DNA of 64,000 bases from Geosiphon pyriformis (Eukaryota; Glomeromycota; Glomeromycetes; Archaeosporales; Geosiphonaceae): contig JAAOMT010000376.1 in assembly GCA_016748015.1 (NCBI GenBank), positions 62,001 to 126,000 of the forward strand, read 5' to 3'. The position numbers and the translations under genes were made by a program. The notes beneath the pieces were generated by a model. That model did not search any database. It was not told the origin of the DNA and saw only the letters and a program-made list of their open reading frames with translations. Of this stretch, positions 17,316-60,224 are shown piece after piece (position 1 is the stretch's first letter; each line of letters starts with the position of its first letter).

Positions 17316-17754
17316 ATTTTGTTGAATAAATAATATTATATTATTATATAGTATTTTTAGTTATAAAAATATTAATTTGCTTTACTGTAATTTTATCAGA
17401 ATTAGCAGAATTTAAATTAAATCTAACATTTAAAATAATTCATACTAATAGTAAAAAGTTATAAATTATTGAGTATTACAGATATAAATTATAAATATAA
17501 AAATTTTTTAACTATTAAATTGATAGATTTAAAATACTATAACTTATTACAAGTTATGAGTTATCTTAAATTTGACTGTAATATTAATTAAATTAACAAT
17601 AATTATATTATTATTATAAGTAATTTTTTTTAAATAATAAACAATTAATTATAATAATTTTTATTAATTAAAGAATTAAAAATATGTTTGTAATTTTTTT
17701 TTTATTAGCTTTTAATAAGTAAAGCCCAATTACTATCTAGTACAAAAAGCCAAA

Positions 17755-35146: not shown

Positions 35147-35263
35147 TATAAGCAATTTGAAAAAATAAAAAAATTATTTTTGGTGTATGGGTTTTTATGT
35201 TATTTTTGTTTTGTTTTTGTGAGATTGTTTCTAAATTAGAAGAGAATAACTAGTAAAATTAAA

Positions 35264-36118
35264 TTAAGTGTTCAGGTTGGAAGATTGTTCAATGACAACT
35301 ATTGGTTCTAAGTTTCGGGGAATATCTTCAGAACTGACCAAAGGGGAATGTGTACCAATTTGTGGAATTAATGGTTCAGGATTGTTTCTGGAATGATAGT
35401 GTTTCAAACGATTTCCATGTACAACTTTTACTAGGATTTTGTCATCAAGTCTTAGCTTGTATGATCCGTTGCCTAGGACTTCATAAATAAAGAATGGTTC
35501 ATCCCATTTATTTTCAAATTTTCCACTCCATTGTTTTTCAGCTTTAGTTCTGTGTAAGAGAACTTTGTTTCCAATTTTAAATTCATTGGTGACTGAAGGC
35601 AATTTGTCATTATGTCGTTCTTTTTGTTGAGCTTGGGAGTGTTCAATATGGGTGGCTGCTATTCGTTGTTTTCCTTCCAATGTGCTAAGCAGAATGTAGG
35701 CTCTTTGCTGAAGTGTTTCTTGGAAATTGTTTTTATTGATTGGTTGTGCTGGGTATGTTTCCACTGTGAAACTAATTGGTAACATTGCTGTCCTTCTATA
35801 AGTTAAATCAAATGGTATGTGTTTCGTGGTATCTTGTTTTAATGTCCTATATGCTAGTAACACTGATGGAATAAAGAGATCCCATTCTTGCTCAAAATCG
35901 GTTGAGACTTTGGCTAATGACTCACACAATGTTCTGTTAAAATGTTCCACAAGTCTGTTTGTTTGTGGATGGTAGGGCAAAGACAGAGGTCTTTTGACAT
36001 TAAATTGTTCACAAATTTCTTGTATCAGGTTGTTCACAAAGTGTGTTCCCTGATTAGATAAAAGTTCAATTGGACATCCATGTCTACAAATAATGTCTTC
36101 GTAGATGAAATTTTGCAT
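35264..36118 (-). pseudogene. Ty3 integrase, C-terminal part of catalytic core and GPY/F-like domain
   Basis: 284 codons open. The second catalytic Asp lies in the usual SDQGTHF block, here SNQGTHF, an Asp-to-Asn change. The block with the catalytic Glu reads HPQTNRLVEHFNRTL, with Glu kept but the usual Gly and Arg changed to Arg and His. All three are G-to-A changes on the coding strand. The end, KWDEPFFIYEVLGNGSYKL and onward, is a GPY/F-like module. Preceded by a frameshift at about 36120. Confidence 0.85.
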
Positions 36119-36122
36119 CTGC

Positions 36123-36701
36123 TCATTGAATGGCTCTGGCTTCAGGCCATTTAGTAAGATAGTCTACAGCTACTGCAATATAACAGTTTCCTTGAGTGGT
36201 AATAGATAGTGGTCTGACTAAATTGATACCAACTTTGTCAAAAGGCTGTCCAACTTTGATTGGATTTAAAGGTTCTGTAGGGCAAGTTCCTCCTCTTCTT
36301 TGACAACTATCACAAGATTCGACATATTCATGAATGTCTTTTTTCATTCGAGACCAATAGTAGTATTCTAGTGTTCTTTGGGTGGTACTATCTTTTCCAA
36401 AGTGTGCTGACAAAGGATCTGAGTGCATATTGTATAAAATGGTCTCTTTTTCCTGTTCTTGTATTAATCTGAGTGATTTGATTGGGTTTTTGGAATTTCG
36501 ATGATAGATAATGTTGTTGTGTAGAAAATATTGTTTGGCTTGTTGTTGTAACCAATGTTTTTCGTTTGGGGACCAATCTGTTGGGATTGTTAATGTTTCC
36601 AAATATTGTTTGAGATTGTTGTAGTTTTCGGGGTTCATTGTTTGTTGTTTTGATGCTGTTAGTTCAAATGGGTGTTGGTTTTGTTTTCTAATCTTGCCTC
36701 A
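36123..36701 (-). pseudogene. Ty3 integrase, N-terminal zinc-binding part and first catalytic Asp region
   Basis: Frame open from 36638 to 36126 with an HHCC zinc finger (HSDPLSAHFG ... ESCDSCQRRG). The strand with the first catalytic Asp should read GIDLVGPL; here it is GINLVRPL, so the Asp is Asn. YIAVAVDYLTKWPEARA follows. A TGA at 36699 lies upstream in the same frame, and a frameshift near 36705 separates it from RNase H. Confidence 0.85.
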
Positions 36702-36704
36702 TTC

Positions 36705-37980
36705 TTGAAAGACAATCAATGTTGGTGTGGAGTTTTTCTGGTTTATGATGTATGATGTATTAGTAATTAGCTAAAAATCTTGTCCATTGGGTTTGTTTTG
36801 CATTCAGTTGGGTGTTTTTGTTTTGAAGCCATTTAAGTCCAATATTATCAGTGATAATATCGAATTCTTTGGGTCTGAGGTAAAGGTTGAAGTGATGTAG
36901 GGCCCAGATTACTGCTGTGGTTTCTAATTCTGTTGTAAGGTAGTTCTTTTCGGCTGGCTTTAATGTTCTACTAGCATAAACAATTACTCACTCATTTCCA
37001 TTGTCATCTAACTGTGATAGGATGGCACCAAAGGCAGTATAAGAGGCATCAGTTGCTAACCGAAATCGGTTGCTAAAGTCTGGGTAGGCGAGGATTGGAG
37101 CTGTTGTGAGTTTTTCCTTAAGTATCTCGAAGATGTTTTGGTGTTCTTCTGTCCATTTGTATTCGACATTTTTAGTAGTGAGCTGGTTGAGGGGTTTTGC
37201 AATTTCTGAGAATCCTTTGATGAATTTTCGGTAATAGGATGCTAATCCAATAAATCCTCTTAATTCTGTGGTATTTTGTGGAGTCTTGAAGTTTTTGACA
37301 GTACTAATTTTTCTGGGGTCTGGTTTAATTCCATCTTTGTTAACAATGTGACCAAGAAAAGCTAAACTTGTTTTTCCAAAGTAGCATTTTTCAATGTTCA
37401 GTTTCAATCCTGCTTTCTGTAATCATTGAAAAACTTCTCACAGGTGAATTAAATGTAGCTCGAAAGATGGTGAATAAACATCAGTGTCATCAAGATAAAC
37501 TACTACTGATTTTCAAAGGAGGTCTTTGTAAACAACATCCATGAGTCTTTGGAATGTTGCTGGTGCATTACATAATCCGAAAGGCATTACATTGAACTCG
37601 TAATTTCCTCCTTGAGTGGTGAATGCTGTTTTGGGGCAGTCTTTGGGATCCATAGCAACTTGCCAGTATCCACTCTCTAAATCTAATGTTGAAAAGTATT
37701 TGGACTTTCCAAGAGCATCCAACATGTTATCAATTCGGGAAAGAGGGTAGACATCCCCAATAGTGACACTGTTGAGTTGTCGGTAATCAACACAAAATCG
37801 TATCTTTCCATTTTTCTTTTTAACTAGGACCACAGATGAGGCCCATGGGCTTATTGATGGTTGAATAAGCCCATTGTTAAGCATCCGTTGTACTTCTTCT
37901 CGGATAAATTGGTGACTTTCTGGGGTGACTCGGTAGGCTTGTTGTTGCCTTGGTTTGGCATTTCCTGTATAGATTTGGTG
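36705..37980 (-). pseudogene. Ty3 reverse transcriptase and RNase H
   Basis: RT begins after a TAA at 37981 (probably a former Gln). It reads ISPWASSVVLVKKKNGKIRF, then STLDLESGYWQVAMD, then FGLCNAPATFQRLMD, and then the catalytic box VVVYLDD near 37500-37480, which is intact. The thumb and RNase H follow: FLGHIVNKDGIKPDP, LATDASYTAFGAILSQ (first RNase H Asp), ELETTAVIWALHHF, and IITDNIGLKWL (a catalytic Asp). In-frame TGA at 37513, 37438, 37423 and 36988 and TAA at 36760 interrupt it without changing frame. Confidence 0.9.
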
Positions 37981-39063
37981 TTAAACCAAATCAGTTCTTT
38001 CTAAGTCATTGTTGTTTTCGGCGAAGATGTCAGCAAATTCTGCAATTAGCTCTTTGAGCTGGGTCTGTTGTTGTGGTTTAAGTTGTCCCATGTTGATTTG
38101 AGATAGTTTTTCCATGACAACATGGTAGTTTTCAGAGCTAGGGTTTGGGTTGATTTTTGGTAGTAAATGTTCAATAATTTCAGGGAAATCGGGGACTGTT
38201 TGGGGTAATTCTTGTTGAAATATATTACTGTGAATAACTCCAATTTCTAAATTATTTAATAAAATTATGGGGTAATTATTGGGGTTGTAAAAAGTAACTC
38301 GGACTTTTTTTGTTCCTTTTGGAATATAAATGTTTGGGATCGAAATATTATGTTCCAAGCAGACTTGTTCATTGGACTCAAAAATTTGTTGTGTGGTTGT
38401 TGGCTTTGTGCAAGTGTAGATTTCCAGATGTTCTCCAAAAAGTGAGATGGTAATTAGTTGTGGAAGTCTGAGAATCTGGTGGGATTCGTTCTTTGTGTTA
38501 AGAACTATATTAACTGGAACTGTAAATCGTCCAGTTGAACCAAAACCTTGGGTTCCTCTATCGCTTTTTCCTAATTGTTCTCTTTGATTGACTAGTTGCA
38601 AATCTGAAATGTTGATTAAGGGTAGGTAAATAGCTTGGGCAATGTTTTCAGCATGTTCAATCTTGAATGGTTTGTCAGTTTCATTTTGAAGCATCACTGT
38701 TATGTCTCCAGTATATCCAGCATCGATTATTCCTCCTCTGACATTGATTCCTTTGCTTGCCAGAGAGAACTGGGAGGTGATTTGAACCATTGCTCCTAGT
38801 GAAATTTCGAGTGCAATTTTGAGATTGATTTTTGTAAGAGATTTGGGTTTGAGAACAAGAGTATCCTTGCCTGGATATCTTAAGTCATATCCAGCATTAA
38901 TTTCGTGTGCTTTTTCGGGTTTTATTCCTTGTCCGTTGTTGTTGAAGTATTTAAGTTGTAAGGCAGGCTGATTTTCAATAAGATAGGTGGGTGTTGTTTC
39001 AATTTCTTCCATTTCTTTAGGTTCTCCAAATTCAATTTCATTCTCATCATTTTCACTGGGCAA
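37981..39063 (-). CDS. Ty3 polyprotein segment: dUTPase domain plus RT leader
   Basis: 360 codons without a stop, part of the pol reading frame. Residues 35-180 of this segment hold the trimeric dUTPase motifs in order: AGYDL (57-61), SQFSLASKG (97-105, usual Arg replaced by Gln), GGIIDAGYTGDI (110-121) with the catalytic Asp, ENIAQAI (139-145), and the P-loop-like DRGTQGFGSTG (168-178). dUTPase cleaves dUTP to dUMP and keeps uracil out of DNA; in a retroelement it would protect cDNA. Residues 180-300 are beta-rich and not recognised. Residues 300-360 form the usual lead-in to RT (ELIAEFADIFAENNNDLERT). Its position between protease and RT differs from lentiviruses, where it follows RNase H. 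Confidence 0.9.
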   Translation of the reverse strand: MPSENDENEIEFGEPKEMEEIETTPTYLIENQPALQLKYFNNNGQGIKPEKAHEINAGYDLRYPGKDTLVLKPKSLTKINLKIALEISLGAMVQITSQFSLASKGINVRGGIIDAGYTGDITVMLQNETDKPFKIEHAENIAQAIYLPLINISDLQLVNQREQLGKSDRGTQGFGSTGRFTVPVNIVLNTKNESHQILRLPQLITISLFGEHLEIYTCTKPTTTQQIFESNEQVCLEHNISIPNIYIPKGTKKVRVTFYNPNNYPIILLNNLEIGVIHSNIFQQELPQTVPDFPEIIEHLLPKINPNPSSENYHVVMEKLSQINMGQLKPQQQTQLKELIAEFADIFAENNNDLERTDLV

Positions 39064-39626
39064 GGGGATACTAAGAGCATAGCATTCAGGACACTATTGT
39101 TCATTGCAAGGCATAATGCATTCTTTACATAGCCTAATGTTCATTTGCTCTAATCATTGAATTTGAGCTTCTTGGGTCGGGTAGGTGTGACTTGCAATTT
39201 GGTGGTAGACTTCTACTTTGTCTTCGTAATCGAATCCAGCCAATTCCATAGTGTATTCAATGTATTCTGCTTCCTTCATTTGACAAACATCTTCTTTGGT
39301 AGCTCCATTAATTAATGCTATTGCTAAGTTGAAAATCATCTTGGCATCATGAGAGTAGTAATAAAGTTTGTTAAGAGCACTGTTGTATGCTGCATTAAAG
39401 GGTGTTCCTCTTTTTACTTTTTCTGAAATTGATAAAGCATATTGGCAGGTCTGATCGCAGATGCCTCTTCTCATTGCTATATTAATCTAATTGCATTCTT
39501 CTGGTAGCATATCTCCACAAATCAAACAAGGGGTGTTGTCCCATTTTCTGCTCCTTTTTATTAGATGGCCTCATCACTCTCTGTAGCAAGCTTTGCAGTA
39601 ATAACAAGTATGATTCTCATATTCTT
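39064..39626 (-). pseudogene. Ty3 polyprotein Cys-rich segment of unknown function
   Basis: Same reading frame as protease and dUTPase, interrupted by two adjacent TGA (39574, 39571), TAG 39487, TGA 39154 and TAG 39094. Four cysteine pairs stand out: CYYCKAC, CLICGD, CKECIMPC and CPECYA, which together could hold two zinc ions. Between them is a helical stretch of about 90 residues (MRRGICDQTCQYALSISEKV onward). Not a standard part of gypsy pol that I recognise; it could be a zinc-binding insert that helps RNA or DNA binding. Confidence 0.6.
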
Positions 39627-40635
39627 TTTCAGGTGAAATGCAGGCTCCCATTGACGATAGTTTCTTGTGGTAGTCCTTATATTTAAGGGGAATATAGGGG
39701 TGTTGTTTCCTTGGTTCAGGTTTTGAGTAAGGTATATTCCATCCAGAGGTTTCAGGTTTAGTGTGTGGGGTAAAATATTCTTGTTCTGTTTCATCGGCCC
39801 AGTTGGACGTTGATCTAAGAGCCATGAATGTTTCAATTATTGGTTTTTCTTCTTCTGATTCGAATTCAAAAGCTGGGGCTTTTTCAGAGTGTTTGTTGAA
39901 TGTACTACAAATAGCAGATACCCGGGCATGTTGTCCTTGGTAGGAGATTGTTAACTCTTGTGTTTCCCAATTCAGATTAGCATTGGCTTTTTGAAGCCAA
40001 TTATTTCCAACAAGAGCTTGGTACTGGGGTACGTCCATTATAAGAACTTTGACTGAAATAGTAATTCCATCAAGAGTGAATGGAAAATTGTCAATTTCTC
40101 CTACTGAGGTCTTTTTCATGCCATCGGCAGTAATGATTACTGTTTGAGCTGGTCAGTTGACATTTCTTTTCAACTGTTGCATCAACTGGTAGATAATAAT
40201 GCTTCCGGCAGATCCATTGTCTAGGATCAAGCGAATTGGCTTTCCTTTTACTTCAGCTTCTGTGTACATTGCAGTGATGGCTTTTTGCTCATTAGCCGCT
40301 GCATTGCTAAGCAAGAATGGTGATTTATTTGCTTCAAATTCAAAAGGAAAGATATCAGAGAGATTGGCGTTTTCAGCAATTCAGGCTGGTGGAATAGTGG
40401 TGTGGTTATGAGAAGGGTTTTGTTGTTGTTGTGCTGCAGCTCTACCTTTCGAGAGTACAGTATGGTGAAAATCCTGTTCTTCCAGCATTGTTAAATAACT
40501 GGGTTGAGTGTGGTAATGGTTGGGTCTTGGTTGAGTAGTATTTCAGAGAACCAATTGGTTGTTCAAACTGATTCTACTGTTGTTTACTTGGTATCAGTTT
40601 TGTGGTGTAAATTGATTTTGTGTAATCAGTCTTCA
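39574..40635 (-). pseudogene. Ty3 protease region
   Basis: The retropepsin core reads IRLILDNGSAGSIIIYQL near 40230-40180, where DSG/DTG is expected; the Ser/Thr is Asn, again a G-to-A type change. ITADGMKK and ALVGNNWLQKANANLNWETQ follow, as in gypsy proteases. In-frame TGA at 40633, 40594, 40543, 40381 and 40153. Reached from Gag by a shift of -1 within the overlap of about 200 nt (40833-40626); no convincing slippery heptamer was spotted. Confidence 0.8.
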
Positions 40636-42305
40636 AACAGGTACTTGATAATGTTGGGTGGGTGGTTGTTGGTGTTGCTGTTGGATTGGTTGTGAGGTGG
40701 GCTGATAATAGTTATTTTGGTATTGGGGTCTTGGTAGATAGTAAGCTGGTGGTGATGATTGATAATAAGATTGCTGTGGTGGAGAGTAACATTGATTACT
40801 CTTATTTGTTGGTCTCGTTGCAGCTTTCTGCAATCTCTTTTCCAGTGGTCAGAGATTCCACAGTAATGGCAATTCTGGGGCTGGTTATTGGAAAGTGGTG
40901 CAAAGTTATTTTGATTTCGTCTTTGGGGTGGTTGATATCTTTGGGGTTGTTGTTGTTGGTTGGTAAAATAGTTTTCAACCTTCTTTGTGAGTTGGTCAAT
41001 TTTTTCCTCAGCTACTGAGCTGGTTTCTCCAATTGCCAAATTTACAAGTTTTGTATGATTGGCTTCTTCTATGGTCATTTCATATCTTTTCGCATACTGT
41101 ATGGCAGAGTTTAAATCTTCTGGTGCGTGTGGGCAAACCTTTTTAATTAGTTTATCTTTTAGGCCAGCAATAAATTGATCCAAGATTTGAGCATCAGAAT
41201 AATAATTGTTTGTCTTGAGTTGGCGAATCCATCTGAAAAGTTTGTTGAATTTCCCAATATAAGTCATAACAGATTCGGAGGGTTCTTGTTTGATATTTCG
41301 AAAACAATTGCGAAGAGTGATGGAGGTATTATTGTCGGTGAACTGTTCAAGGAAGGCTGCTTTGAAAGCATTCCAATCATTGAATGGGGGGACAAGGTTT
41401 TCAAACCATTCTCCTGCTGTTCCTTTGAGAAAATAGGGAATTGTTCTTAACATTCTGGCAGCATTCCATCCATTTGCATCTCCAGCTTTAGTAACTTGGT
41501 CGAGCCATTCTTGGGGACTGGTCTCAATATCTTCTCCATTGAATTTAGGGATTTTTGCGATGTATGTTGTCATTTTGTCTTCTTCGTTTTCATTGTCTAT
41601 TGATTCTTCTTCAGTTATTTCAGAGTTGTTTTCTTCATTTGCTGCTGTCTCAGAGTGTTCACTTTGATTTTCAGCTAGAAAATCAAGGAGATTGGAACTA
41701 GTTTGAAGGGGTTCTTGTTGTCTGGTGGGACTTCTGAGTGATGTAAAATCTTCTGGTTTTGTAAATCGATTCAAGGGTGAATTAAGTGTTTGTGCTTGTG
41801 CAAGTAAAGCTGGAAAAGGTGTGATAATAAGTGGAAATTTTGAACTGGTTCCTTGTTCAGGTGTTTGTAAATGTTTGGCAGTTGTTTTCGGTAGTGTTGG
41901 AGTATTTGGGGTGGTTCTTGAATATTGCTTTAATTTGTTTTTGCCTTTGTTGCTTGTTTCTGTTTCCGATTCAAAGTTAATAGTGTATTGAGACTGCACT
42001 AGATATGTTTCTTCACAGTATTTGATAATGTTAAAATTAAGTTTGTGAAAGTAAGTGGCAAGTGTTTCACTATTAAGGTCTTCAGTTTCCAACTGTGAAT
42101 AGTGTACTAAATTATTGTAAAGGTTGCTTCTAACTTCTGAGATATTATAATTTCTAAAAAGATAATTGTTGATGCAGTTTTCAATGTATTGGTATACTGA
42201 TTTTTTGACAACTTCAATTCCGTCTGGAATGTTGAATCTTTGCTTGCAGTGGGTGTAAATTGATTGGTAATACTCTAGAGTTGTTGTGTCTGGTGTGGTC
42301 GCCAC
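40626..42305 (-). CDS. Ty3 Gag
   Basis: 559 codons with no internal stop. The central retrotrans_gag-like region (ETSPQEWLDQ, ... KGTAGEWFENL, ... WNAFKAAFLEQFTDN) forms the capsid. A CCHC zinc knuckle, CHYCGISDHWKRDC, lies near residue 475-490 and would bind the element RNA. A Gln/Pro/Asn-rich end overlaps the protease frame. The first codon in the open frame is GTG; the first in-frame ATG is residue 245 (at 41573), before MTTYIAKIPKFNG. So either the start codon was lost, translation starts at a non-AUG codon, or only the shorter capsid-nucleocapsid part is made. Confidence 0.85.
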   Translation of the reverse strand: MATTPDTTTLEYYQSIYTHCKQRFNIPDGIEVVKKSVYQYIENCINNYLFRNYNISEVRSNLYNNLVHYSQLETEDLNSETLATYFHKLNFNIIKYCEETYLVQSQYTINFESETETSNKGKNKLKQYSRTTPNTPTLPKTTAKHLQTPEQGTSSKFPLIITPFPALLAQAQTLNSPLNRFTKPEDFTSLRSPTRQQEPLQTSSNLLDFLAENQSEHSETAANEENNSEITEEESIDNENEEDKMTTYIAKIPKFNGEDIETSPQEWLDQVTKAGDANGWNAARMLRTIPYFLKGTAGEWFENLVPPFNDWNAFKAAFLEQFTDNNTSITLRNCFRNIKQEPSESVMTYIGKFNKLFRWIRQLKTNNYYSDAQILDQFIAGLKDKLIKKVCPHAPEDLNSAIQYAKRYEMTIEEANHTKLVNLAIGETSSVAEEKIDQLTKKVENYFTNQQQQPQRYQPPQRRNQNNFAPLSNNQPQNCHYCGISDHWKRDCRKLQRDQQIRVINVTLHHSNLIINHHHQLTIYQDPNTKITIISPPHNQSNSNTNNHPPNIIKYLFED

Positions 42306-42334
42306 TTTGAAGTTGTTTTTGCTGTGTTGTTTCT

Positions 42335-42348
42335 GTGGAAGAGCACCA
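42335..42348 (-). promoter_or_regulatory. primer-binding site of Ty3 element
   Basis: Two bases inside the 5' LTR the minus strand reads TGGTGCTCTTCCAC, beginning with the TGG that pairs with the CCA end of a tRNA. The tRNA identity cannot be fixed from here. Confidence 0.8.
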
Positions 42349-42350
42349 AA

Positions 42351-43330
42351 TGTTACCGGAGGTTTTTGGTCTCTTTTCTGTAATGTTGTTAATACTTATT
42401 TGCTGTAAATTCACGTTTTCTGGATGTGGTTGAACCTCCAATAACTGAATTTATCTTCAAATTATCTCCTATAATTTGAACTTGCTGGGCTTATGTGTGG
42501 AATGACCAATTCTGTGCCAGTTGCTTTATGTAGTTACGTTGTAGTAAACGTCAACTCTTTCCCAGGAATTGCTCGTCTAGAAGCTCACTAAAAATGTGTA
42601 GTTACTTTGCTGTGAAAGTCAACTTTTCTACAGGAATCTTGTCTGTAGGCTACCCTAATGATTGTAATAAGAAAAGAAAAGAAAAATAAAAGAAGTGTAA
42701 AAAAAATAAGATTTTATCAAGGGAAACATTTTCTATTCATGCCTGGAGTCACTAACAGTTTATTGAAATTGGTAGCTAATCAATTTCGAAATGTTAGTTG
42801 GTTTTTGGGGATTTTTCAAGGGCAATAATTAAAGAATTTGGTTTTTCAAATTATTTGGTATTTATTTCTTTTTGTGTGTGTAGAAATGGTTCTAAGTAAT
42901 AAATCTAAAGTAAGATATATTTTCTCAAAGAGAGAAGCTCTTCTTTTATACAACTTGTTGTAACACTATTCTATGAACTTGAACTTTGCTATTTTCTACA
43001 ATTTTGCTGAACTAAAGATACATTTCGGCAAACTACAAGTTATTTCGGCGAACTATTAGATATTTCAGTGAACTATCAATTATTTCGGTGAATTTCTACA
43101 AATTTCGGCAAACTTTTGAATGTTATATTGTTCGGGGTATTGCATGATTGATCATTGCAATTAGGTTACATTTGTGTTGTGTACAATTTGGGATATTAAT
43201 TAAATAATAATTTCGGACATTTTTGCTAATGTAATAAGTAATCATTTGAAATGATAATATATGCTAATTAATGATAGGAATTATAAGATAATTTCATGCT
43301 AAATAATATCTCTAATTTCGTCTGGTAACA
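42351..43330 (-). repeat. 5' LTR of Ty3 element
   Basis: 980 bp, same ends and length as the LTR at 33479-34458. By eye about forty differences, of which only about three are transversions. Confidence 0.95.
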
Positions 43331-45590: not shown

Positions 45591-45946
45591 TAATATAATT
45601 TTATGTTTCATATTGACATTTTTAGAATTTAATATTAAGTATTAATTGTATTTTATAGTAAATATTTATTTAATATACTTAACAAAAACTAACAATTATA
45701 CAAGTTAAAAAAAAAAGATAAAAGATAATAATAAAAAAATAAAAAAGTTAATATTATTGTATTAATTTTTGCTTTAAGTAAGCTTTATTTGTTTAAAAAA
45801 TATTTTTTTACAGCTTTAAAAAATCTTACTTATATACTATTAAAAAAAAATTAATTATTAAGTTAATAATTATATTAATAATCAAGTCAATAATCAAGTT
45901 AATACTTAAGTTAATAATTAAATTAAAATTCTTTTTTTCTCTTATT
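45591..45946. other. AT-rich spacer
   Basis: No readable feature; AT-rich DNA with short tandem TTAATAATTAAG-like blocks at 45860-45930. Confidence 0.5.
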
Positions 45947-47925
45947 TTTATAATTACAAACAAAGCAAAAAGTAATAAAGTTTCAAATATTTTTTTTTTA
46001 TAGTAACAAATAAAGTTTCAACAAAAAAAAATCTTTTTATTATTAATATTATTACTATCTTTGTATAAATGGCCAAAAAAATTAAAAAATTAAAAAAACA
46101 GTAGCAGTTGCTTAAATTTATTATTATTATACTAAATTTTTTTGGTAATATCTAATTTTTTTTTAATATAAATAACAACAACAATAATATATTTTTTAAA
46201 ATAAATCAAAATTATCTACTGGCTGTATTGCCAAATATAATATCTTTAACAGATTACTAATTTTAAAAACAAAACAATTTATTAAATTACTTGATCTTAA
46301 AAATTAAGCTAATCAAATAAAAACTAAATCAACTTTTTCTTTTCTGTTTTTTAATACTATTTTAAATAGTGTTTAAAAAACAATTTCCAGTTATAAAAAT
46401 TTTTTGAATAAGTAGTTTTTATTTTAATGTTGGTTTTATTTTTAAAATTAAATTGGCTTTAATTAATTTTTTGTTTTATTTATTTTCTAATTTAGTTAAA
46501 CTTAAATTAGTTTTTAAAAACAATATTAAATTGTTTTATGTAAATTTTGCTTTTAAGACTTTTTTGGTTTTTATTACTAATATTATTATTAATAGTTTTT
46601 TTTTAATATATTTAAAGTTGCAAAATTTTTTTAATAACTTTTGGTTTTTTTTGTTTTATTTTTGTTGTATTTTATAATGTTTTTTTTAACATATTTCTTA
46701 ATAATATTAAAACTACTTTTGATGTTTTTGATATTGTTATTTTGGTAAAATTAAAGTCTACTGACTTGTAATAATATATTATTTTAAGTTTTAAAAACTT
46801 TTTCTTTACTATTGCTGCTTTTAATAACTAGTTTGTATTAATTAAAAAAAATAGTATTTAGATTTTTTTTTTTCTTAATTAAAAAAAGATTATTATTTTA
46901 AAAAAATTTTTAAGACCAAATTAATTAATCTTTTTTTTTTAAGTTAATAATTATACTTGTTTTATTCTCTATTTTTCTGTTTTTTATTATTATTAGTGTT
47001 TTATTATTGTTACTTTTAAGTTTTATAAAATGTTAAAACTTGTTATAATTAAAATTAATATTTTGCACAAATATTATATTTGGTAAAAAACTTCTGAATA
47101 TTATTGTTGTTATAGATATTAAAATTTAAATCACTTGTTTAAAGATTGCAAAATGTTATTATTTTTTTATAAGTTGTTTGCTAAGTTTACTGTTGACTTT
47201 AAGTTGTGTTTTTTTTATTAATAAAAAGTCTTATATTAAGACTTTTACTTTTTTGTTTTTTTTTTTGCTGTTTTTTTGGTACTGTTTATTATTGATTTTA
47301 TTATTAAATTTAAATTGAACTTTTTGAAATCTTAAATTTTAAGTTTGGTTACTTTGATAAAATTTGTTATTAAGTTTATTAGTTTTTTGATTACTTTAGT
47401 TATTAATCTTTTAAATAAACATATTAATAAGACTTTTTAAATAAAAAAATGTGCTTATTATAAAATATAATGCTAATAATTTTCTAATCTTCTTATTAGT
47501 GTTTTTAAAAACATTATATATTTTAAGTCTAAAATTAATTTTAATAAAATAAACTATAATAAAATGTTAATTACAAAGTTTTTTTTTAAATAAAAATATT
47601 ATTAAGTATGTTATTATTTTATAATATATATTAAATGCTAAAACCAAAGATAATATTAAAGCAATTAAATTATTTCTTAATTAATTTATCTTTAATTCTA
47701 AAAATTTAAATAGTATTATTGAAAAAATTTATAAATTAGGTTTATTTTTAACTTTTTTTGTTTTAATATAGTATTGTTTTAACTGACTTAAATAGTTGGT
47801 TATGTATAAAAAGTATATAAATCATATTTAGTTTAAATTATTTAATTTAGATTATTTAGTTTAATATATTATATTAAAATATATTTGAATCTTATTCATT
47901 ATATATAATAAATAAATAAAAAATT
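45947..47925 (+). mobile_element. ORF1-only element copy H (decayed half-LINE)
   Basis: Plus-strand relic of about 2 kb. Its start (TTATAATTACAAACAAAGC) matches the start of element D. A frame open for 74 codons at 46453-46677 contains NLVKLKLVFKNNIKLF. A zinc-knuckle remnant (CCYRY then NLNHLFKDCKM) lies near 47110-47155, with the second Cys changed to Tyr. The ORF1 end (SIIEKIYKLGLF) at about 47720-47755 is followed within some 50 bp by the LINE 3' tail, here GTTATGTATAAAAAGTATAT at about 47808. No endonuclease or RT lies between. AT decay is extensive. Confidence 0.6.
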
Positions 47926-48185
47926 AAATTAATAATAAAATAATAATTAATTCTAAAAATAAAATAGTTAATAATATTATTAATAATTAATACATGTTAT
48001 TAATTATAATAAATAATAAATAAAATTAAAAATTTATATAATAATTAATTAAACAAAAATATTTAAGTAAATATTTTATAATAAATTAAATAACTTATTA
48101 AAAAACAATTTAATACAATATTATAAACAATTTATAAATTTATATAATATTTATAAATTATTATATAAAAATTTTTCTTCTTAAA

Positions 48186-49940
48186 TTTTATGATCATAAT
48201 TAAAGCAAAAAATTAAAAAGTTTTATTGATTATTTTTTTCATAAAGTTTTAATAAAAAAAATTTTTTTTGTTATCAAACCAATTAGCAAAATATTTTAAC
48301 AATATTTTTTTTAAATATTAATAAATAAAAACTGTTTTTAAAAGTTTCTGAAATTTTTTTTTACTTTTGGTTAATAATTTTTTTTAATCAAAAGTTTTTT
48401 TAAAAAACACACTAAAATTAGTTTTAGTATTGTTTCTATTTTTTTTAAAAGCCTTAAAATTTTTAATAATAAGCCAATTAACAAATTAATTTTTTTTGTT
48501 TTTATTATTATTACTATTATTATTATTTTATAAATAACCAAAACTTCAAAAAACAATAATAATTATTTGTATTTATTATTATTATATTAAATCTCTTTAT
48601 AATTTCAAATAAAATTTTTTTAACAATATTTAGTCTTTTTTTTAATATAAATAATAATAATAATAGCATATTTTTTAAAATAAGCCAAGGTTAATCATTA
48701 ATTATAATATTAAATTTAATGTTTTTTAGCAAATAATTATTGATTACAAAATAAAATATAATATGTTTTTGGATGTGTTTTTATTTAATTAATTTATTTA
48801 ATTACTTGATTTTAAAGATTAAACTAATCAAATAAAAATAGAATTAATATTTTTTTGTTTTTTGGTATTGTTTTTGATAATGTTTAGAAAACAATTTTTA
48901 ATTATCAAAAATTTTTTGAGTAAATAATTTTTATTTTAATATCTAATATTATTTTAAGATTAAATTAATTTTAATTAATTTTTTGTTTTATTTGCTATCT
49001 GGTTTTATTAAATTTAAGTCTATTTTAAAGAAAAAATGTAAAATTGTTTGTGTAAATTTTGTTTTTAATGTTTTTTTAATTGTTATTATTAAAATTTTTT
49101 TTAATAATTTTTTTTAATTATATTTAAAATTGCAAAGTTTTTTGTAATAACTTCTGTTTTTTTATTTTATTTGCTATTATACTTTATAATATTTCTTTAA
49201 ATATATTTTTTAATGATATTAAAAATACTTTTGATGTTTTTAATATTGTTATTTTAGTTAAATTAAAATCTATTAATTTGTAGTAATATATAGTTATTTA
49301 TTTCAAAAACTTTTTTTGTTACTGTTATTTTTGTTTACTAATCTGTTTTGGTTAAAAAAATAGTATTAAAATTTTTTTTAATTAATTAAAAAAAATTATT
49401 ATTTTAAAAAATATATTTAAAGCCAAATTTGTCAATTTTTTTTTGTTTTTAAAATTAATAATTTGATTTTTCAAGTTAATAATCATATTTGTTTTATTTT
49501 TAACTTTTTTAATTCTTAATATTGTTAATATTTTATTGTTATTATTTTTAAGTCTTTGAAAATTTTATATTTTATTGTTTTAAAATTTGGTATTTTGTAT
49601 AAAAATTGTATTTAATAAGAAACTTTTAGATATTATTATTATTACAAGTATTAAAATTTAAATTATCTAATTGTAAATTATAATATATTTTCATTTTTTT
49701 TTTAAATTTATTTTTAAGTTTATTGACAGTTTTATTATTATTTTTTATCTTTTATTAATGCAAAATTTTATATTAAAATTATTGTCTTTATAACTTTTTT
49801 TTTAATTGTTTTTTTGGCTATTTTGTTATTAATTCTGTAATTAAATCTGAATTAAATTTTTTAAAATCTTAAATCTTAAGTTTACTGTTAAGCCAATTAA
49901 TTTATTGATTACTTTGGTTATTATAATTATTATTATTATT
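48186..49940 (+). mobile_element. ORF1-only element copy I (decayed, 3' end cut by LINE C)
   Basis: Starts with TTTTATGATCATAATTAAAGC at about 48186, nearly the reverse complement of the 5' end of element D (about 59935). Alignable with copy H over at least 46010-47430 against 48490-49920, in the same orientation, so the two read as direct repeats. Remnants of the zinc knuckle are at about 49625-49680. The sequence stops at about 49935 where the 3' end of LINE C begins, so C inserted into it. Confidence 0.55.
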
Positions 49941-51535
49941 TACAAATGTAGTCTAACTACTATTTAATATACAAAAACAAAAAATTAAGTTTAACTAAAT
50001 ATGACTTACATATTTAATACATATAACTGGTTATTTAGACCAATCAAAGCAATATTATACACTTATATAAATTTTTACTCTATTATCAATGTCTAAAAAA
50101 AAACACATCTTATATAAACCAAAACTTATAACAAAAAATTTATAAATATCTAGTAATCAAACAATTCTTACTGACAAAAAACTTAATACATTACTTAAAA
50201 TTACAGAAACTGAATTAATATTACCAATTAGGCCACTTTTTTTTCTATCCATCTTAAATCTTGCTTTAAACAATCACAATTTACTTCAATGCTTTTTAGT
50301 TAAACTATGAACAAAATTAACTATTACTAACACTACTTTTATTATTATTAAATATTGATACTACTTTATTAATCCAATTTTTAAAAACAAAATTTTTGCA
50401 TAAAACTATATAAATATTCAAATCTAAAATTCCAGAAAAAAGTATATATAATATTATAAAAGATAATAAAAAACTACCACTCACAAAATATTTTTACAGA
50501 TCCATATAACTTAGCAAAATTTTAAAATATATATTAATCTTCTTTAGACAAGTAAAAACATGATTAGACAACTTAATATTATCATATAATAAACATAATA
50601 CACTTAAGTAATCTTAGTCATAAAGTTTTTCTTTATATTAGTTAGTAGTTTCTTATAGACTACTTTTATTAAGCATATGGAAAGAAGCTAAAGTTTTGCT
50701 TATAAATCCTGACAACATATAAAAATTCAAATACTATACTGTAATAATACTATTTCAGTTTATTTTTTTAATTATTAACTTATTTACAATTTTAATATTA
50801 GATCTAGTTTTCTATTAAGTATAATAAATAGACTGACAAATATTTTAAACAAAGTAATAAGTGTCTCCTAATATGACTCTGTCATCAATTATAACAAACT
50901 TTTCATGAACTTTTTCTGGAAAAAAATAGCCAGGATATGCTGCTTTACTAACAAGAATGTTAATTTTATTGTTATCAGTATTTTCTGAATAACTTTTGAT
51001 TTTTATTTATTTAATAAAAATGTTCTAAATCTTATTAAATTAACTATATAATATTATTCTATTCAGTACTTATTTTAAAAGTCTGGCTAATAAAGCATAA
51101 GTTCCAAAGAATATATATATTCAAAACTGTTTAACTATTTATATGTACAACTATTAAGTAGAATGAAAAAATACATTCTAATATTAAAGTAATTTTCTAA
51201 AATTCAGTTATTATAGAAAACAGCAATTTGTATATCTTAACATTCATGTTTATTTCAATATTAGAAAAATAAACTGTTATTCTATTAGCAACTTTTTTCA
51301 TGTTCAGTTGCTTTAAAGAACTATTTGTATAAATATTAAAAATGTCTATCCATAATTTATGCAAACACTTCTGAATATTTGTAAAATTATTTAAATAAAA
51401 AAATTTTGAACAATTAAAGCTAGATGCTATTCTACCAGATTTAATAAGATGTTTATTTATATAAATTGAAGCTTTTTTAAATTACAATAATATTAGATCT
51501 CTAGAACTTAGTCTTTTCTAATAACAAAAATTTTT

Positions 51536-54500
51536 TCAATTTATAATTAATCTTTCCTTATTTAACAATTTGTTATTAAAAATGACACCAAAATGCTTTA
51601 AGAAATAAACTATGTCAAAATAAAATAAGTTTTCTAATATCTTAAATATTAAAAAATAATTAGAATCATAAAATATACTGAGTAGACTATTGGCCAAGAA
51701 TAACTTATTATTTAAAAAAATCTTTATTACATCTGCTAAAAAGTTATTTATTAGACTAATTTTTAATTTGATTAGATGCTGCAGAAGATTTATTAGAGTC
51801 CACCCCAAAATTTACAAGTTCAAAAAGCAATATTTAAACAATTAACCAAGAATTTCAAGTGTATTAAAAAACACAATCAAAGAAGCAATCTTGTTTTTCA
51901 CTTGTAACTGTTCAAACATTTTTAATTTATAAAAAGATAGATAATATAAAGTTTTATTAGAGAAATTTTTTGGCAAATTGGCTTTAGATTTTTGTTTTAT
52001 TCTTAATAAAACATTTCATTTCTGACACACAATTTTAGAAATAAAACTGAACTGTGTTTGGTAGCCAACAATGAATTGTAAAACAGCTAAAACCAAATAT
52101 GAAAATTGCTTATTTAACAATGCTTTTCTGAGAACCAAATTAAAAAAAAACCTAATATTTAATTGTGTTTTGGCAAGGCTGGATTTGGACATGTTTTTTG
52201 TTAACAAATAAATTCCCAAATACTTATAATGTTTACTATACTTAACAATAAAGATTGGTTAATCACAAATGTATAAAAACACAATTTTAATTTTCTAATT
52301 AATAGAAATTATCACAGTTTTGTCATTGTTGATAGAAATATCATTTATTTTAAAAAACTCACTAGTGATATCTAAAATATGCTGTGTTAAAGCTTAATTA
52401 TTCTTTATTTAGATTGTATTATTAACAAATATATTAGCTACAAAGAATAAAGATTTATTCTTATTAGCTTTTAATTTGTCTGTTTTTGCCACAAAGTTTA
52501 TATTGATTCTGTATTTATATAAATGTTTTTGTCTTTTAATCTTACACAATAAAAGATTGTAAAAATTTTTTTACAAGAATAGTAAAACCATTTTATTCTA
52601 ATTCAACTTATTTAGTACTTTATAACTATTTAAAAGACCAAAATCAGTTATCACTCTATTGATTTTGTTTATATATATGTTTCTAAAAAACTTTATAAAC
52701 TTTTTACATATCTTAATTTGTCTTAAACTAGCTTCCAAATAATGCTATTTAACTAAGTTATAAGTTTTACATATATCTTAAAGAACCAGCTAAACTTTTC
52801 AACACTTTTTCAAAGTGTTTTTTACTATTAAACTAATGGCAAACACAAAAAATTAAGTTGAAATACTCTTTAAAACAGAAAAATTGTTATCTCAAAAAAT
52901 GTTATATTTTATACAAGCAAATAAAATATGCTTTGACAAAATTCTGAATAAATTTTTTTTAGCTATTTTAATTAATGTAATAGATTATATATTTATTAAG
53001 ATGTCTTTTTAATTGTATGGTTTGGAAATCATTAAAACTCAAGCTCTTTTCCAAAGAATTAGAATTTTCTTAAAAGCCAAATAAAAGTTAAGCAGACCCA
53101 ATAAGTATTTTAATATTTTATCACTATAATATTTCTATAGTTTATTTAATATGCCAAACAAACTTATAGCCTTATTATTAAACAAACTATTAATTACCAG
53201 AATTAATTTACTTATACTGATCTTATTTATCACATTAGAAAAAACATTTTCTTTAATATAATTCAGCAGTACATATTAATAAAATTATATATCTAATAGT
53301 ATTAATAACATCTTTTATTTTTTTGTTTAATCTATTATAATCTTATTTACCTTAAACTTTACTTCTTTTGGCTTTAAAACCAACTTTTTTTTAATTACCA
53401 AATAATTTAAAACTATTTTGTAAAAAGATCATTCCAAAACACTTTTTATCATATTATCTTTGTTAAAACTAAAATTATCTATTTATTTTTCAATTGCATT
53501 TTTAATAGCTATATCTTCAACTATTTTAAATTTATAATATTTTAACTTTCTGTATTTTTTTCTAATTAGTAATAACTACTTTAATACATCCTTTATATTT
53601 GCACTATCTTGAACTATAATGCCAATTTTAAAAGTCTCTTTATTATTATATATTAGCTATTTTTAAAAAAAATAATTATATTCAAACTTATTTTCTATAC
53701 TTAATTCTCTTATAATCTTTGTAATTAGCAATTTCAGTTCATGAATTTCAATAATTGTTTGTTTTTTGTGTGATTGAATTTATTGTACCAATGTTTAGAA
53801 AAAGTTATATCTGCTAAACTTATTATTATCTCTTTTAATTCTTCTTACATAGTATCTAAATTGCCAAAATTTTTTGTATCTATGAATTTATTTATTATTC
53901 TTAACAGTCCAGTAAAAATATAATCTTTAAAATAGATTTATTTAGCTTTATTTATATTTTTAATCCTAAATTTTTATTAGTTTTTATTAGTTTGCTTTTA
54001 AATTGCAATCATGTATTTATCTATTAGATTTCTAAAATCAAAAAAAGATTATTACAGCCTTGTAGTCAGTATTAAAAAATTTGAACACACTGTTAATACT
54101 TTGACTTATTATAATTAATAAGAAATATTTATTAAAAAAGATAAAATTAATAGTTTTATTTACACCCCTTAAATTGTTCTATGTTGAAAGCTTAACAGTC
54201 AATCCATTTGTAAAAAAGTTACACAAATTCAAATCGAAACATTTCTTAAAACTTATTTTTTGTTTTTTTCTGTCTTTATTAAGATCATTACCAAGTATTA
54301 CATAAGAGCTTGAATTAATTGTTTTAACAATACATAAGTTCATCTTGTAAGCTTAATTAAATCATATATTAGTTGAAACACTAATATACAAATTCAAAAT
54401 TGTTATTAAAATTTTATTGTTAAATAATAAACAGATTAAGATAAGATAACTAAGAATCTAGAAACTTTGTACACATGTTAAGCTAAAATATTGTTTGTTA

Positions 54501-55571: not shown

Positions 55572-56497
55572 GTATTACTAAAGGTTTTTGGTCTTTTTTA
55601 TTAATTGTTATTAATATTAATTTGCTGTTTACTTTACATTTATTGGAAGCTATTGAATCTTTAATAACTAAATTTGTCTTTAAATTATTTCTTATAATAT
55701 GAACTGCTGGAATTATAAGTAAAATGGCCAATTTTATGCCAATTACTTTATATAGTTATATTATAGTAAATATTAACTTTTTTTCAGAAATTGCTTGTTT
55801 AGAAGCTTATTAAAAAATGTGTAGTTATTTTATAATGAAAGTCAACTCTTTTACAGAAATTTTGTCTATAGGCTACTCTAATAATTATAATAAAAAAAAT
55901 ATAAAAAAATATAAAAAATATAAAAAAAACAAAATTTTATTAAAAGAATTATTTTTAGTTAATTTTAAAATGTTAGTTGAATTTTGAGAATATTAAGTAT
56001 AATTATCTTAAAAATTGAGTTTTAAAATATAATTTTTATTTTTATTATTTATAATTAAAGATAGTATTTAAGTAATAATTCTGGGTAAAATACATTTTCT
56101 CAAAGAAAGAAGCTTTTTTTTTATACAATTTGTTATAGTACTAGTCTATAAACTTAAAATTTTTCTTTTTGCTATTATTTTAATAAACTAAAAATACATT
56201 TTAATAACTTATAAGTTATTTTATTGAACTATTAACTATTTTAATAAATTATTTATTATTTTGGCAAATTTTTATAAATTTTAGCAAATTCTTAAATATT
56301 ACATAGTTTGAAGTTTTGTTTTATTTAATCATCTTAATTTTTATTATACAAATTGGGTTTTTAATTAAATAGTGATATTTAATAATTTAATTAAGTAATA
56401 AATAATAATTAAAACAATATTAATATATGCTAATTAATAATAGAAATGATAAATATAATTTTATATTAATTTAATAACTAAAATTTTACTGGTAATA
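55572..56497. repeat. decayed solo LTR of the Ty3 family in LINE C
   Basis: About 926 bp starting TATTAC and ending GGTAATA, which are transition-mutated forms of TGTTAC and GGTAACA. Collinear with the other LTRs, including AGGTTTTTGGTC at the start and a TAATTAATAATAGAAAT block near the end. The oldest of the four LTRs by appearance. Confidence 0.8.
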
Positions 56498-57010
56498 CCA
56501 AATTTAACCAAAAAAATTTCTTTTTTATTATCCAAATGCTTAATATTATCTACAAAAACTTTTTTTTTAAAAAGAAAGTACTTTCAATTAGACCATAAAA
56601 GACTCTTTTGAATGTCTTTTTCTTAAACATGTTGTTATTTGAAACAACTTCTAAGTTTATTACAAAAAAATTATTAACTTGAAAAATATTAAAAGTAATA
56701 TTACTAAAAAACTAAAGACAAAAAACTTCTTTTTCAAGAAATTGCTCTTTGAAAAATTTTAAACATAAAAGAAAAAAAAATTTTATTTTTATAAATTATA
56801 AAATAAAAAATATTTTTTTGTTTTGTATATAAAATTTAAAAATGTAATTAATACTATTTAAAATAAAATATATATATTTTTTTTATTAGAGATTTAATAA
56901 GTATGGCCTAACCAGTAATTAGAAATTAGAACCAAACTAAGTGATTCAAGACTAATTTGGTTCATACACTTTCTACATGTAACCAGTTACTTAAGCCAGT
57001 TTAAGTTATA

Positions 57011-58401
57011 CTATGCTGCTAACCCACAAGAAAATTTGTTCAAGATAGACATTTTTTGAATTACATCAAACAAAGTAAGATTACTAAAAACCAATCTAAC
57101 AAGCCACTTAACTGTTTTTATAAGATCGAACTTAACATCAAGAGATTTAAATTTCCAGAATGCTATCAATTTACCAAACATCTTATTACTTACTCCAATT
57201 AGAACACCAGAATTACCAAACAAATCAATATTCTTTATGTTATACTCAGTTTTTAATGCCACCACCTCTTTTTCTAACTTATTAACAGATTTGCTAAAAG
57301 CACTCAAATGCACCATAAGTTCATTAACTTTGTTTCCAAGTTTGCTGCTAGATACAAGATCACCCTTAATAAACTGTTCAAAAGTGGTTATCAAACTATC
57401 AACAGACTTAACAATAGAGTTAACCAACATTGACAACTTGGCCAAACCAAATTCCAGAGAAGCTAATTGAGAAAACATTAAAGAATCAGCAACAGCCACA
57501 GAAAAAGCAGAAGCCACCAAAAGAGCAAATGCTTTTGTATAAGACAAAAAACTGACAAAATGTGGTTTAAACATCTTGGCAGCTTTAGAAGAAAGAGATA
57601 GAACAATCTTACACTTCACAGCCAAGTGATCTATTTTGTAACACCAAAAACAACACTGATAACTAGGAGTTTTTTACCAGATATGGCACTTTTTCAGTAT
57701 ACTAGTTTTGACAACAACAAGGTCCAAATCAGCTTGGGAGCCAAATGTAACCAGAGCAAAACAGAGATGACAACCAGAATCAGAAGACTAAAGAATAAAA
57801 CAAGTCTAATTACCAATCTAAGAAATCATATTACTGATTTCAAAGACAGTACAACCAAGAGAAATATTAACCAACTTGGCCTTAAATCTATTATGAGACA
57901 CAATTGTTTTTTGTTGATTTATGAAAAGAAAGATCTGAATACTATCTTTGCTCACTAAAACCAACCAGTAATTGAAAGCAGATGTGACAGCATCCAAATT
58001 CTTAAAGTAAATAACAATATATTGTCAAATACCAACAGATCTCAACTGAATGTAAGAAATTTCACCAAAAGCACCAAGAGTTGTTTTAATGTTAGCAGCA
58101 GATATACCTAAAGACATATTGAGCAATACAATAACAGCAGAAGGGAAACCAAACTCAGAAATCACCAAAAACTTGGCAATTTTAAAAGTGGCAAGGTAAA
58201 CAAAGCTTGTAAGCTTAACCAAAAATACAGTATTGAAAGAATTTTAGGAAGCAAACTCCATACAAAAAAGCTTCATATTATCTTTTAAAACAGACTTTGC
58301 ACCCAAAAAATTATGTACAAACTAAAAAACAGTCTTAACATAAGCCAATTTGATCTTGAAAGTAACACTAAACACCAGAGTAGAAGCCATCTACTTAGTA
58401 A
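57011..58401 (-). pseudogene. element D ORF1, C-terminal part: RRM-like, zinc knuckle, coiled coil
   Basis: From MASTLVFSVTF at about 58392 through an RRM-like domain (ISAANIKTTLGAFGEISYI, 58222-58025). A stop stands where other copies have Trp (RSVGI then stop then QYIV). An intact CCHC knuckle, CFWCYKIDHLAVKC, lies at about 57650-57610. Next is an open frame of 204 codons (57625-57011) with a coiled coil. It ends SCGLAA just before the 3' tail. The best preserved ORF1 knuckle in the window. Confidence 0.75.
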
Positions 58402-59251
58402 ATTTTTGATGATATTACTTATAGAATGTAAGAAGTATATTAACATATAAATTAGCCAATTAGAAGTAGTCATAATAAATGTAAAATTTCAGAATTCTTT
58501 TCAAAAAAATTGCAGGATTCCAAAAATTTCAGAATTCTCATATGAGAAATTGCAGAATTGTAGAATTCCAGGATTTTTTTTAAAAGAATTGCAGAATTCC
58601 AGAAATTCTAGGATTTCTGGTGTAAAGAATTGAGAAATTAAGGAATCTCAATTATGTATATATAGTGGTAATATTAAAAGTAGAAAGAAAAGATCTTTCT
58701 ATTTGGATTTTATCTAAGCAATGTTCTAATTCCTAAATACTAATAAATAATTATTTGTTATTTCAATTTACTCTTCACTATCAACACTTTATAGTAATAG
58801 TAACTGATACTTAACCACACTGGAACAATAGCTCTTGATTATAGCTATTGATAGAATACTAATATTTATTGCCTTAACTTACTTTTTTTTTTTATTTTTG
58901 TTATTTCTTGTTGTTGACTAATTGATTAAGGAATAAGTACTGAGTTATTGATGTCAATAATTGCCTGGTAAAAAACCTCCATGAGTGGATAAAACACATA
59001 AAAAATACAGATTACTTATCAGAGAATTGCTGGCCATTAAGCTAAAAAAAGAATTGATGGAATTGTATTTCCAAGAGGCTACTGAAAACAACCATTGAAT
59101 TTCTGTTCATTATACAAAAGACTTAACCAAAACCTTTAAACAATCAAAATCTTTAGATATTAAAATCACTATATTATCAATTAAATACCAAGTTACGAAT
59201 TTGTTATTTGATTTGAAACTCCAAATAATTATCTGTAACAATAATTAGTAA
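58395..59251. mobile_element. 843-bp unidentified insert in element D
   Basis: Sequence 58402-59244 is flanked by TTAGTAA at 58395-58401 and 59245-59251. Removing it with one flank copy puts the ORF1 halves back in the same frame. It contains repeated TTGCAGAATTCCAGAATT-like units at 58490-58640, a perfect 14-bp palindrome TTCTCATATGAGAA at 58535-58548, a TATATATAG box near 58657, and no recognised coding region. The ends show no clear inverted repeat. Possibly a nonautonomous DNA element or a solo LTR of another family. Confidence 0.6.
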
Positions 59252-59940
59252 TAGTTTCTTAAGCACTACCAAAAGTAGCACCAAAAACCAGAAGAGAGGA
59301 TAATTCAATATCTATTTGGTCAATCCAGTTTTTAAGAACAAATAACACCACAGGAAATGATTGTTTTGCTTCTAAAACTAGTGATGATCTGTCAGAAAAC
59401 ACCACATTTGGCAATACAGCCAGTGGTTAATCTTGGTTTATCTTGGATGACATATTGAATAATACAATAAAGATCTTATTTAGAACCACAAAGGAGTTCA
59501 GTATAACAATAGCAGAGACAAGCAACTGTCTCCACTTTTCTGAACTTTTGGTTTTTTTGATCATTTTCTTTGAAGAGAAAGTGTTAAAAGCACCAGACAT
59601 TAAAACTATGGAGGGGAATACCAGTTTGTTAACTGGTCTATTATTAAACACTTTTGAACTCTTAGTAAAAGTGGAGGCAATACTGGGACTAACCCAAGTG
59701 TGTCTCTTTGAAGGAACTTTGACTAGTGAAAAACCAGCCAACAATGGGGAAGTTGTTTTAATAGCTATCAAAGACAGCTTTTCATAATTACTAAGTAAAG
59801 AGAATGCTTCTAAAATGTTTTGTCTGATTGCTTTTACAACAGAAAGAGCTCTTTTGATTGAAATTTTATTAGATATCTTAGGAAAGATATTAAGTGCAGC
59901 TTTTTTACTCTTTGCTTTAATTATGATTATAAAATTAAAG
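59252..59940 (-). pseudogene. element D ORF1, N-terminal part
   Basis: Lys/Ser-rich start (SKKAALNIFPKISN) at about 59920, an open stretch at 59771-59427, and a segment ending in LFVLKNWIDQIDIE near 59300. One stop lies at about 59265, just before the insert. Confidence 0.6.
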
Positions 59941-60224
59941 AGATAAAGAATTTTATTATATAAAATATTTATTTTTAATAGACTATAAGTTTTTTATAAA
60001 TATAAATATTAATTAAGATTAAATATAGTTTTAATACTAATTATATAAATAAATATAATAAAATTTTTTTAAATAATAAAGTTTATATTAGATTAATTAT
60101 TTTTTAAAATTATTAATAATATTAAGTTTAATATAGATAAAATTATTAAATAATTAAGTAATATTATTATAAATAATAATACTTTGACTATAGTTTTACA
60201 TAAAATGTTTTTTCAGAATAAGGT

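Follow-up and report, generated by a model that had tools for sequence, protein, structure and literature searches.

A 64-kb stretch of the genome of the fungus Geosiphon pyriformis, which we call the window, contains an element (D) that has a LINE-like ORF1 and 3' tail and gives no match to a LINE ORF2 protein, even at E 0.1. The question that this locus raises is whether D is the remnant of a full LINE or a copy of an element that propagates with ORF1 alone, and, if so, with whose enzyme. The original prediction, made from the window by itself, was that D and two decayed elements, H and I, form an ORF1-only lineage that shares its tail with the LINEs of the same window. Its core was right and several details had to be corrected: D is a real copy of a large ORF1-only family, which we call half-LINE (HL).

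D (ORF1 class C1, tail class T1) occupies positions 56878 to 59950 on the minus strand, with the 5' end near 59950 and the 3' end near 56878. A genome search with D (40 of 6,594 candidates scored) gave two collinear blocks on either side of an insert, and the boundaries were set from the copies. Comparison of copies placed the 5' end and the N-terminal part of ORF1 at 59241 to 59950 (minus strand); this copy has ATA in place of the start codon. The next 831 bp (58410 to 59240), beginning with TG and ending with CA, were missing from the collinear copies and are foreign to the half-LINE. The middle and C-terminal part of ORF1 (57015 to 58409, minus strand), located by tblastn with pieces of half-LINE ORF1, comprises the RRM region, zinc knuckle, coil, and C1-type C terminus, domains that were taken from relatives. 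The CCHC knuckle of D itself, of the pattern CX2CX4HX4C, lies at 57611 to 57652 (minus strand) in the translation of the open reading frame 57011 to 57673. The structured tail runs from the ORF1 stop codon onward (56893 to 57014, minus strand; covariance model R1, E 6.7e-21). The description of D as an ORF1 with a zinc knuckle and no ORF2 was therefore accurate, except that 831 bp of the span belong to a nested insert; the tail, which had been placed tens of bases after ORF1, begins at the stop codon, as seen in intact copies and the tail alignment.

We take the 831-bp repeat, from its TG...CA ends, to be solo-LTR-like. Related copies occur in L016, L027, L032, L046, and L047, inside or adjoining several other half-LINE copies, and two stand alone among the fetched loci, although the search that found the repeat favors places that hold both it and a half-LINE.

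Both H (45942 to 47903, plus strand) and I (48180 to 49883, plus strand), delimited by homology to D and the tail model, match the 5' end and ORF1 of D, and so they are the decayed relatives that they had been taken for. H has a C2-type ORF1 and a tail at 47768 to 47903 (plus strand) that the structure model matched with an E value of 1.2e-4. It repeats the architecture of D but not its junction sequence, because the 3' part of ORF1 is C2 in H and C1 in D. A zinc knuckle had also been assigned to H and I, but we found no CCHC pattern in any frame of either. The structure model found no tail belonging to I; the tail that adjoins it is on the opposite strand and fits the LINE there.

We searched the genome with the junction between the C1 ORF1 end and the tail and found it at 137 places with at most two mismatches, D included, while the reversed control gave 0. 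The junction is therefore not unique to each copy. Independently of the junction, we scored 300 HL-type ORF1 places (150 of 1,369 candidates for C1 and 150 of 1,139 for C2, with none in both sets), spread over 87 and 93 contigs. An uninterrupted copy of 2,267 bp (L009) served as the reference unit. Seventeen of 40 fetched loci, L009 included, were uninterrupted from base 5 or earlier to base 2,241 or later of this unit, a share that is not representative since these were the best-scoring loci; L016 and D (L048) are two further, interrupted copies, and in 8 more of the 40, the first ∼1,650 bp of the unit are followed by a C2 end. The starts (CTCTTTGTCTCC...) and the ends (ATTAAA...AATAAAAAA) recur across copies. 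Three of eight loci fetched for long frames (L055, L056, and L057) have a single uninterrupted ORF1 of ∼700 amino acids that opens at the shared start and closes with a TAG; the tail and an A-run come immediately after. Two loci on different contigs, L019 and L030, have common flanks and are probably one insertion that was duplicated, either as a segment or as haplotypes.

The absence of ORF2 extended to most of these loci. HL ORF1 was present in 50 of 54 loci, and in 47 of these 50 the tail lay on the same strand, 0 to 79 bp past the last matched ORF1 residue. The other three are ambiguous or too incomplete to judge: at L018, the contig ends within ORF1, and L034 is cut before the tail. At L023 (G000:C131:100000-104618), an HL ORF1 lacking a 3' end and tail is followed by an insert and then by a piece of LINE ORF2 on the same strand; in L013, L040, and L057, a piece of LINE ORF2 lies beyond the element's own tail.

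Genome-wide, one of five tail patterns occurred within 200 bp downstream of 163 of the 300 HL ORF1 places, compared with 0 of 150 LINE ORF1 places (scored from 2,984). The 163 divide into 63 of 150 C1 places (T1, 32; T5, 29; TB, 2) and 100 of 150 C2 places (T4, 72; T3, 15; TB, 13); at the other 137 of the 300, no pattern fell within 200 bp under these strict patterns. The patterns had 85 (T1), 17 (T3), 78 (T4), 48 (T5), 495 (TB, 100 used), and 157 (TA, 100 used) places, and their reversed controls all had 0. Between 4.2 and 5.0 kb downstream, the relation was reversed: a tail was found at 13 distinct LINE ORF1 places (TB, 11; TA, 2, one of them also T1), at no C1 place, and at one C2 place. 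The 13 LINE tails sit at 4.36 to 4.79 kb, which leaves room for ORF2. LINE reverse transcriptase (RT) places (105 of 5,962 scored) had a TA tail 1,541 to 1,568 bp downstream in 24 of 105 cases, and LINEs with long open frames are present, for example, one of 1,811 amino acids without a stop at C330:482814. The single C2-type exception (G000:C182:41678-42337, 50% identity), with a T1-type tail pattern at 46764, 4,427 bp downstream, is possibly an ORF2-bearing relative or two unrelated elements. A few other C1 or C2 places had a tail at 950, 1,299, 2,374, 2,578, 5,226, or 8,840 bp, of which the first two distances belong to loci with inserts (L043 and L040).

The ORF1 protein appears to be laid out as an N-terminal part, an RRM region, a CCHC knuckle, a coil, and a C-terminal part of its own. 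Among five proteins, two (P0002 and P0008) had Pfam RRM_1 and zf-CCHC above the cut-off, P0001 fell just below the cut-offs, P0053 had neither, and P0101, a half-LINE/LINE fusion model, had RRM_1 only. Alignment of HL with LINE ORF1 by hhalign gave a probability of 99.5% (E 2.6e-23; 26% identity over 349 columns) and covered the RRM region and the knuckle. By these features, the half-LINE protein is a non-LTR ORF1 of the RRM-plus-CCHC type. A quick tree without bootstrap, built from 26 HL (the only HL copies included) and 25 LINE ORF1 proteins, placed each set on one side of a branch with SH-aLRT 100 and stems of 2.18 and 1.88. Two classes of HL C terminus, C1 and C2, were distinguished; for the HL C-terminal part, there was no convincing match among LINE proteins (best blastp E 0.03) or to two LINE ORF2 ends (hhalign, 0.4%). 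By these comparisons, the HL and LINE ORF1s are distant homologs, and HL ORF1 is a clade of its own. Structure prediction added little: the predicted models were of low confidence (mean pLDDT, 38.1 and 36.7), residues 325 to 395 of the first were predicted to be RRM-like only in the order of strands and helices, and a PDB sequence search gave one weak match (E 0.042).

These results bear on the possibility that D and H arose separately, each as a full LINE that lost its interior but retained ORF1 and the tail. Such deletions would account for the homology of HL and LINE ORF1s and for the common tails, but not for the same junction at 137 places, the existence of intact copies, the C-terminal part without a convincing match in LINE proteins or the two ORF2 ends, or a single HL clade separated from 25 LINE ORF1s with SH-aLRT 100 and about two changes per column on either side; we consider this origin very improbable. 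The conclusion that this is a lineage and not one deletion agrees with the 137 junctions, the intact copies, and the separate ORF1 clade, and the contrast of 163 of 300 with 0 of 150 places argues against full-length relatives with ORF2 between ORF1 and the tail. The earlier reading that half-LINEs were mobilized as such is supported.

Public annotation suggests another origin, a dispersed host gene family or processed pseudogenes. All of the best 120 of 273 protein matches to HL ORF1 carry the label hypothetical protein and come from Geosiphon pyriformis. One matches the entire query at 100% identity, which makes the genome of the window that of this fungus or of a very close relative. In a second search, the best 120 of 294 matches were all from Geosiphon. 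A host gene family is hardly credible when the LINE-like tail directly follows ORF1 in 47 of 50 loci, the 5' starts are fixed, the set has target duplications, and the copies are heavily decayed. The 120 best-matching "hypothetical proteins" are, or contain, transposon ORF1s, which matters for gene counts. The public gene models P0087, P0101, and P0117 fuse neighboring elements.

The tails of LINEs and half-LINEs could be aligned along the full stretch between stop codon and A-run. RNAalifold folded 14 of them (T1, T3, T4, T5, TB, and TA; three from LINEs) into an outer stem around three hairpins with 30 pairs, 14 of which show double changes. In this alignment, 93.3% of cells were paired, compared with 31 to 40% when the alignment was slid, and 42 cells carried double changes, compared with 15 ± 4 after shuffling (0 of 500); of five covariation measures, one, the count of additional pair types, was unremarkable (93 of 500). 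In 72 matches fitted to the model, a set that leans to structure by construction, 91.0% of cells were paired and double-change cells numbered 192 versus 94 ± 9. Sixteen further tails from flanking DNA (unclassified), which were found with the structure model and are thus selected toward structure, gave nearly the same layout de novo when aligned without it. The tail common to LINEs and half-LINEs is a covarying RNA structure of ∼120 nucleotides.

That the tail of D and H also ends the LINEs of the window held for LINE B and a third LINE and less clearly for LINE A. The model matched LINE B (class TB, also placed by the tail alignment) at 27876 to 27996 on the minus strand (E 3.6e-27) and the third LINE (RT region at 51514 to 53482, homologous to the RT of LINE A) at 49938 to 50058 on the minus strand (E 4.1e-10); the B tail was among the 14 used to build the model, and those of D, H, the third LINE, and A were outside those 14. 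The match to a partial tail of LINE A (17711 to 17849, minus strand) was weak (E 0.0033), and clear sharing between D and LINE A was limited to the last 67 bp (74.6% identical). The word ACATGTAGAAAGTG, proposed as the core of the tail, proved to be a weak marker: it had 3 matches in the window at two or fewer mismatches versus 0.48 expected, 1 of 100 shuffles had as many, and among the LINE tails it was recognizable (1 mismatch) only in B.

A common tail could be nothing more than shared descent, functionless, with copying by the relaxed poly(A) recognition described for mammalian L1 (PMC3747384). The copies do end in A-rich runs, but the compensatory changes that maintain the 30 pairs in LINE and HL tails alike are unexpected in a functionless remnant, and we regard this explanation as unlikely.

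The association of tails with ORF1 classes suggested that tails have been exchanged. C1 occurs with T1, T5, and TB, and C2 occurs with T3, T4, and TB; T4 is the tail that the three intact copies carry. In the 5' block of the tail, mean identity was 0.82 between T1 and T5 and 0.68 between T1 and TA, whereas in the 3' block, it was 0.53 between T1 and T5 and 0.74 between T1 and the TA of LINEs. The 3' block of half-LINE TB was closest to LINE TB (0.77; next best, 0.67), in a comparison where LINE TB is one sequence and TA is two. The 5' block is thus lineage specific, and the 3' block follows a LINE. Since one ORF1 class can be joined to several tails and the block identities differ in this way, the simplest reading is that the 3' part of the tail was replaced, and tail exchange among half-LINEs and LINEs is probable. 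A further step, that a long-separate half-LINE lineage with a distinct protein family tracks the RTs of its genome by swapping the 3' part of its tail, may well be right, although we lean slightly against it.

We also considered that the half-LINE derives from an autonomous LINE clade with an HL-type ORF1, still present here at a low copy number, and uses the RT of that clade rather than that of LINE A or B. The listed LINE places included none with a T3, T4, or T5 tail, at the C182 place 4,427 bp separate a C2-like ORF1 from the tail downstream, and L023 has a piece of ORF2 behind an HL ORF1 with no tail between them, all of which would fit such a parent. The tail directly after ORF1 in 47 of 50 loci and the resemblance of the 3' blocks of T1 and half-LINE TB to the TA and TB tails of LINEs point away from it, and we judge a hidden parent clade quite unlikely.

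Half-LINE copies terminate in A-rich runs, and as a set they bear target site duplications (TSDs). In 26 of 27 copies tried (one was dropped because its 3' end was not found, and L030 was unused), the mean TSD score of each copy's own flanks was 11.77, compared with 9.27 for mismatched pairs (0 of 20,000 permutations). Taken singly, 10 of the 26 (e.g., L009, L026, L031, and L060) beat 95% of mismatched flank pairs; D was not among them. The expected marks of insertion were therefore present for the set, while the duplication of D itself is unclear.

The copies have decayed almost solely by transitions. Among five T4 copies, 220 of 271 singleton changes were C>T or G>A and 10 were transversions, and D differs from L009 by 336 transitions and 12 transversions. 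Within L055 to L058 and L061 and between D and L009, transitions were 26 to 28 times commoner than transversions, with C>T and G>A alike; CpG was most affected on the C>T side and not on the G>A side. We offer RIP-like mutation or deamination of methylated cytosine as readings of this bias. With decay of this kind, an identity of 76 to 84% probably overstates age. Of 28 ORF1 pairs, which are not independent, 16 had a significant third-position excess of transversions (P < 0.05), with counts at codon positions 1, 2, and 3 of 46, 30, and 63 for L057 and L060 and of 23, 4, and 27 for L056 and L045. The 12 pairs without a significant excess include two within T4 in which transversions number just 10 and 6. 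For the copies most alike, NG86 dN/dS was ∼0.6 to 1.2, which is uninformative, as expected of decay after insertion. These results fit an ORF1 that was constrained between subfamilies while the lineage propagated, and whose individual copies then decayed neutrally.

Based on these results, we consider it highly probable that D belongs to a long-lived non-autonomous lineage of non-LTR retrotransposons that encodes ORF1 only and is copied by the endonuclease (EN) and RT of LINEs via the tail. The half-LINE transcript would be translated into ORF1p, which would coat its own RNA in cis to form a ribonucleoprotein. The ∼120-nucleotide tail would be recognized by the EN/RT of autonomous LINEs whose tails are similar; this enzyme would nick the target and copy the RNA of the half-LINE in trans by target-primed reverse transcription. 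That half-LINEs are copied with the enzyme of other elements is very probable; we infer that this is a LINE RT from the common tail, with its conserved structure behind it.

The closest known system is HAL1 of mammals, a non-autonomous element that encodes only ORF1p, has poly(A) and target duplications, and is described as dependent on LINE RT and EN (PMC5753468, PMC5322556). The half-LINE likewise encodes ORF1 only, without EN or RT, and has an A-rich end and target site duplications (as a set and in 10 of 26 copies singly). HAL1 is reported to have arisen several times from L1 (PMC5753468), whereas half-LINE ORF1 is one lineage, 26% identical to the sampled LINE ORF1 and with its own C-terminal part; the half-LINE also has a structured LINE tail in several variants, and its host is, by protein identity, a fungus, whereas HAL1 is a derivative of the mammalian L1 clade. 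The half-LINE works like HAL1, and it may likewise be mobilized in trans by a LINE RT, but it is not HAL1.

SINEs code for no protein, and we rejected a SINE reading because the half-LINE is not short and non-coding: it measures ∼2.2 kb and encodes a ∼700-amino-acid ORF1. In the homology of its 3' tail to a LINE of the same genome, it does resemble the tail-sharing SINEs. SINE/LINE pairs with a tail of the stringent type, the fungal Mg-SINE/MgL and SINE2-1_BG/Tad1 included, are described as sharing a 3' stem-loop tail with compensatory changes, through which the RT is proposed to be recruited (PMC3747384). The half-LINE also resembles HeT-A of Drosophila in being without RT. HeT-A carries a Gag protein only and is telomeric; half-LINE places are spread over 87 and 93 contigs and have set-level target duplications, and we set a HeT-A reading aside as less likely. 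HeT-A is described as encoding no RT, with TART or TAHRE as the likely source (PMC5537684). Titles and abstract openings in the open literature yielded no published fungal half-LINE. If our reading is true, the ORF1-only way of life extends from mammals to fungi and is joined there with tail recognition of the SINE type. The combination of a constrained protein with an apparently exchangeable tail would allow a direct test of the role of ORF1p in cis with RT in trans.

The window also contains other repeats. On the minus strand, positions 34427 to 42395 hold what we take to be an LTR retrotransposon with gag, RT, and integrase-like frames; a frame at 37981 to 39093 is presumably dUTPase-like. 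Repeats resembling the ends of this element also occur at 30807 to 31815 and 55575 to 56495. A segment at 239 to 2139 is duplicated in inverted orientation at 7814 to 9664 (73 to 81% identical), and the duplicated segment presumably carries a lipase-like frame.
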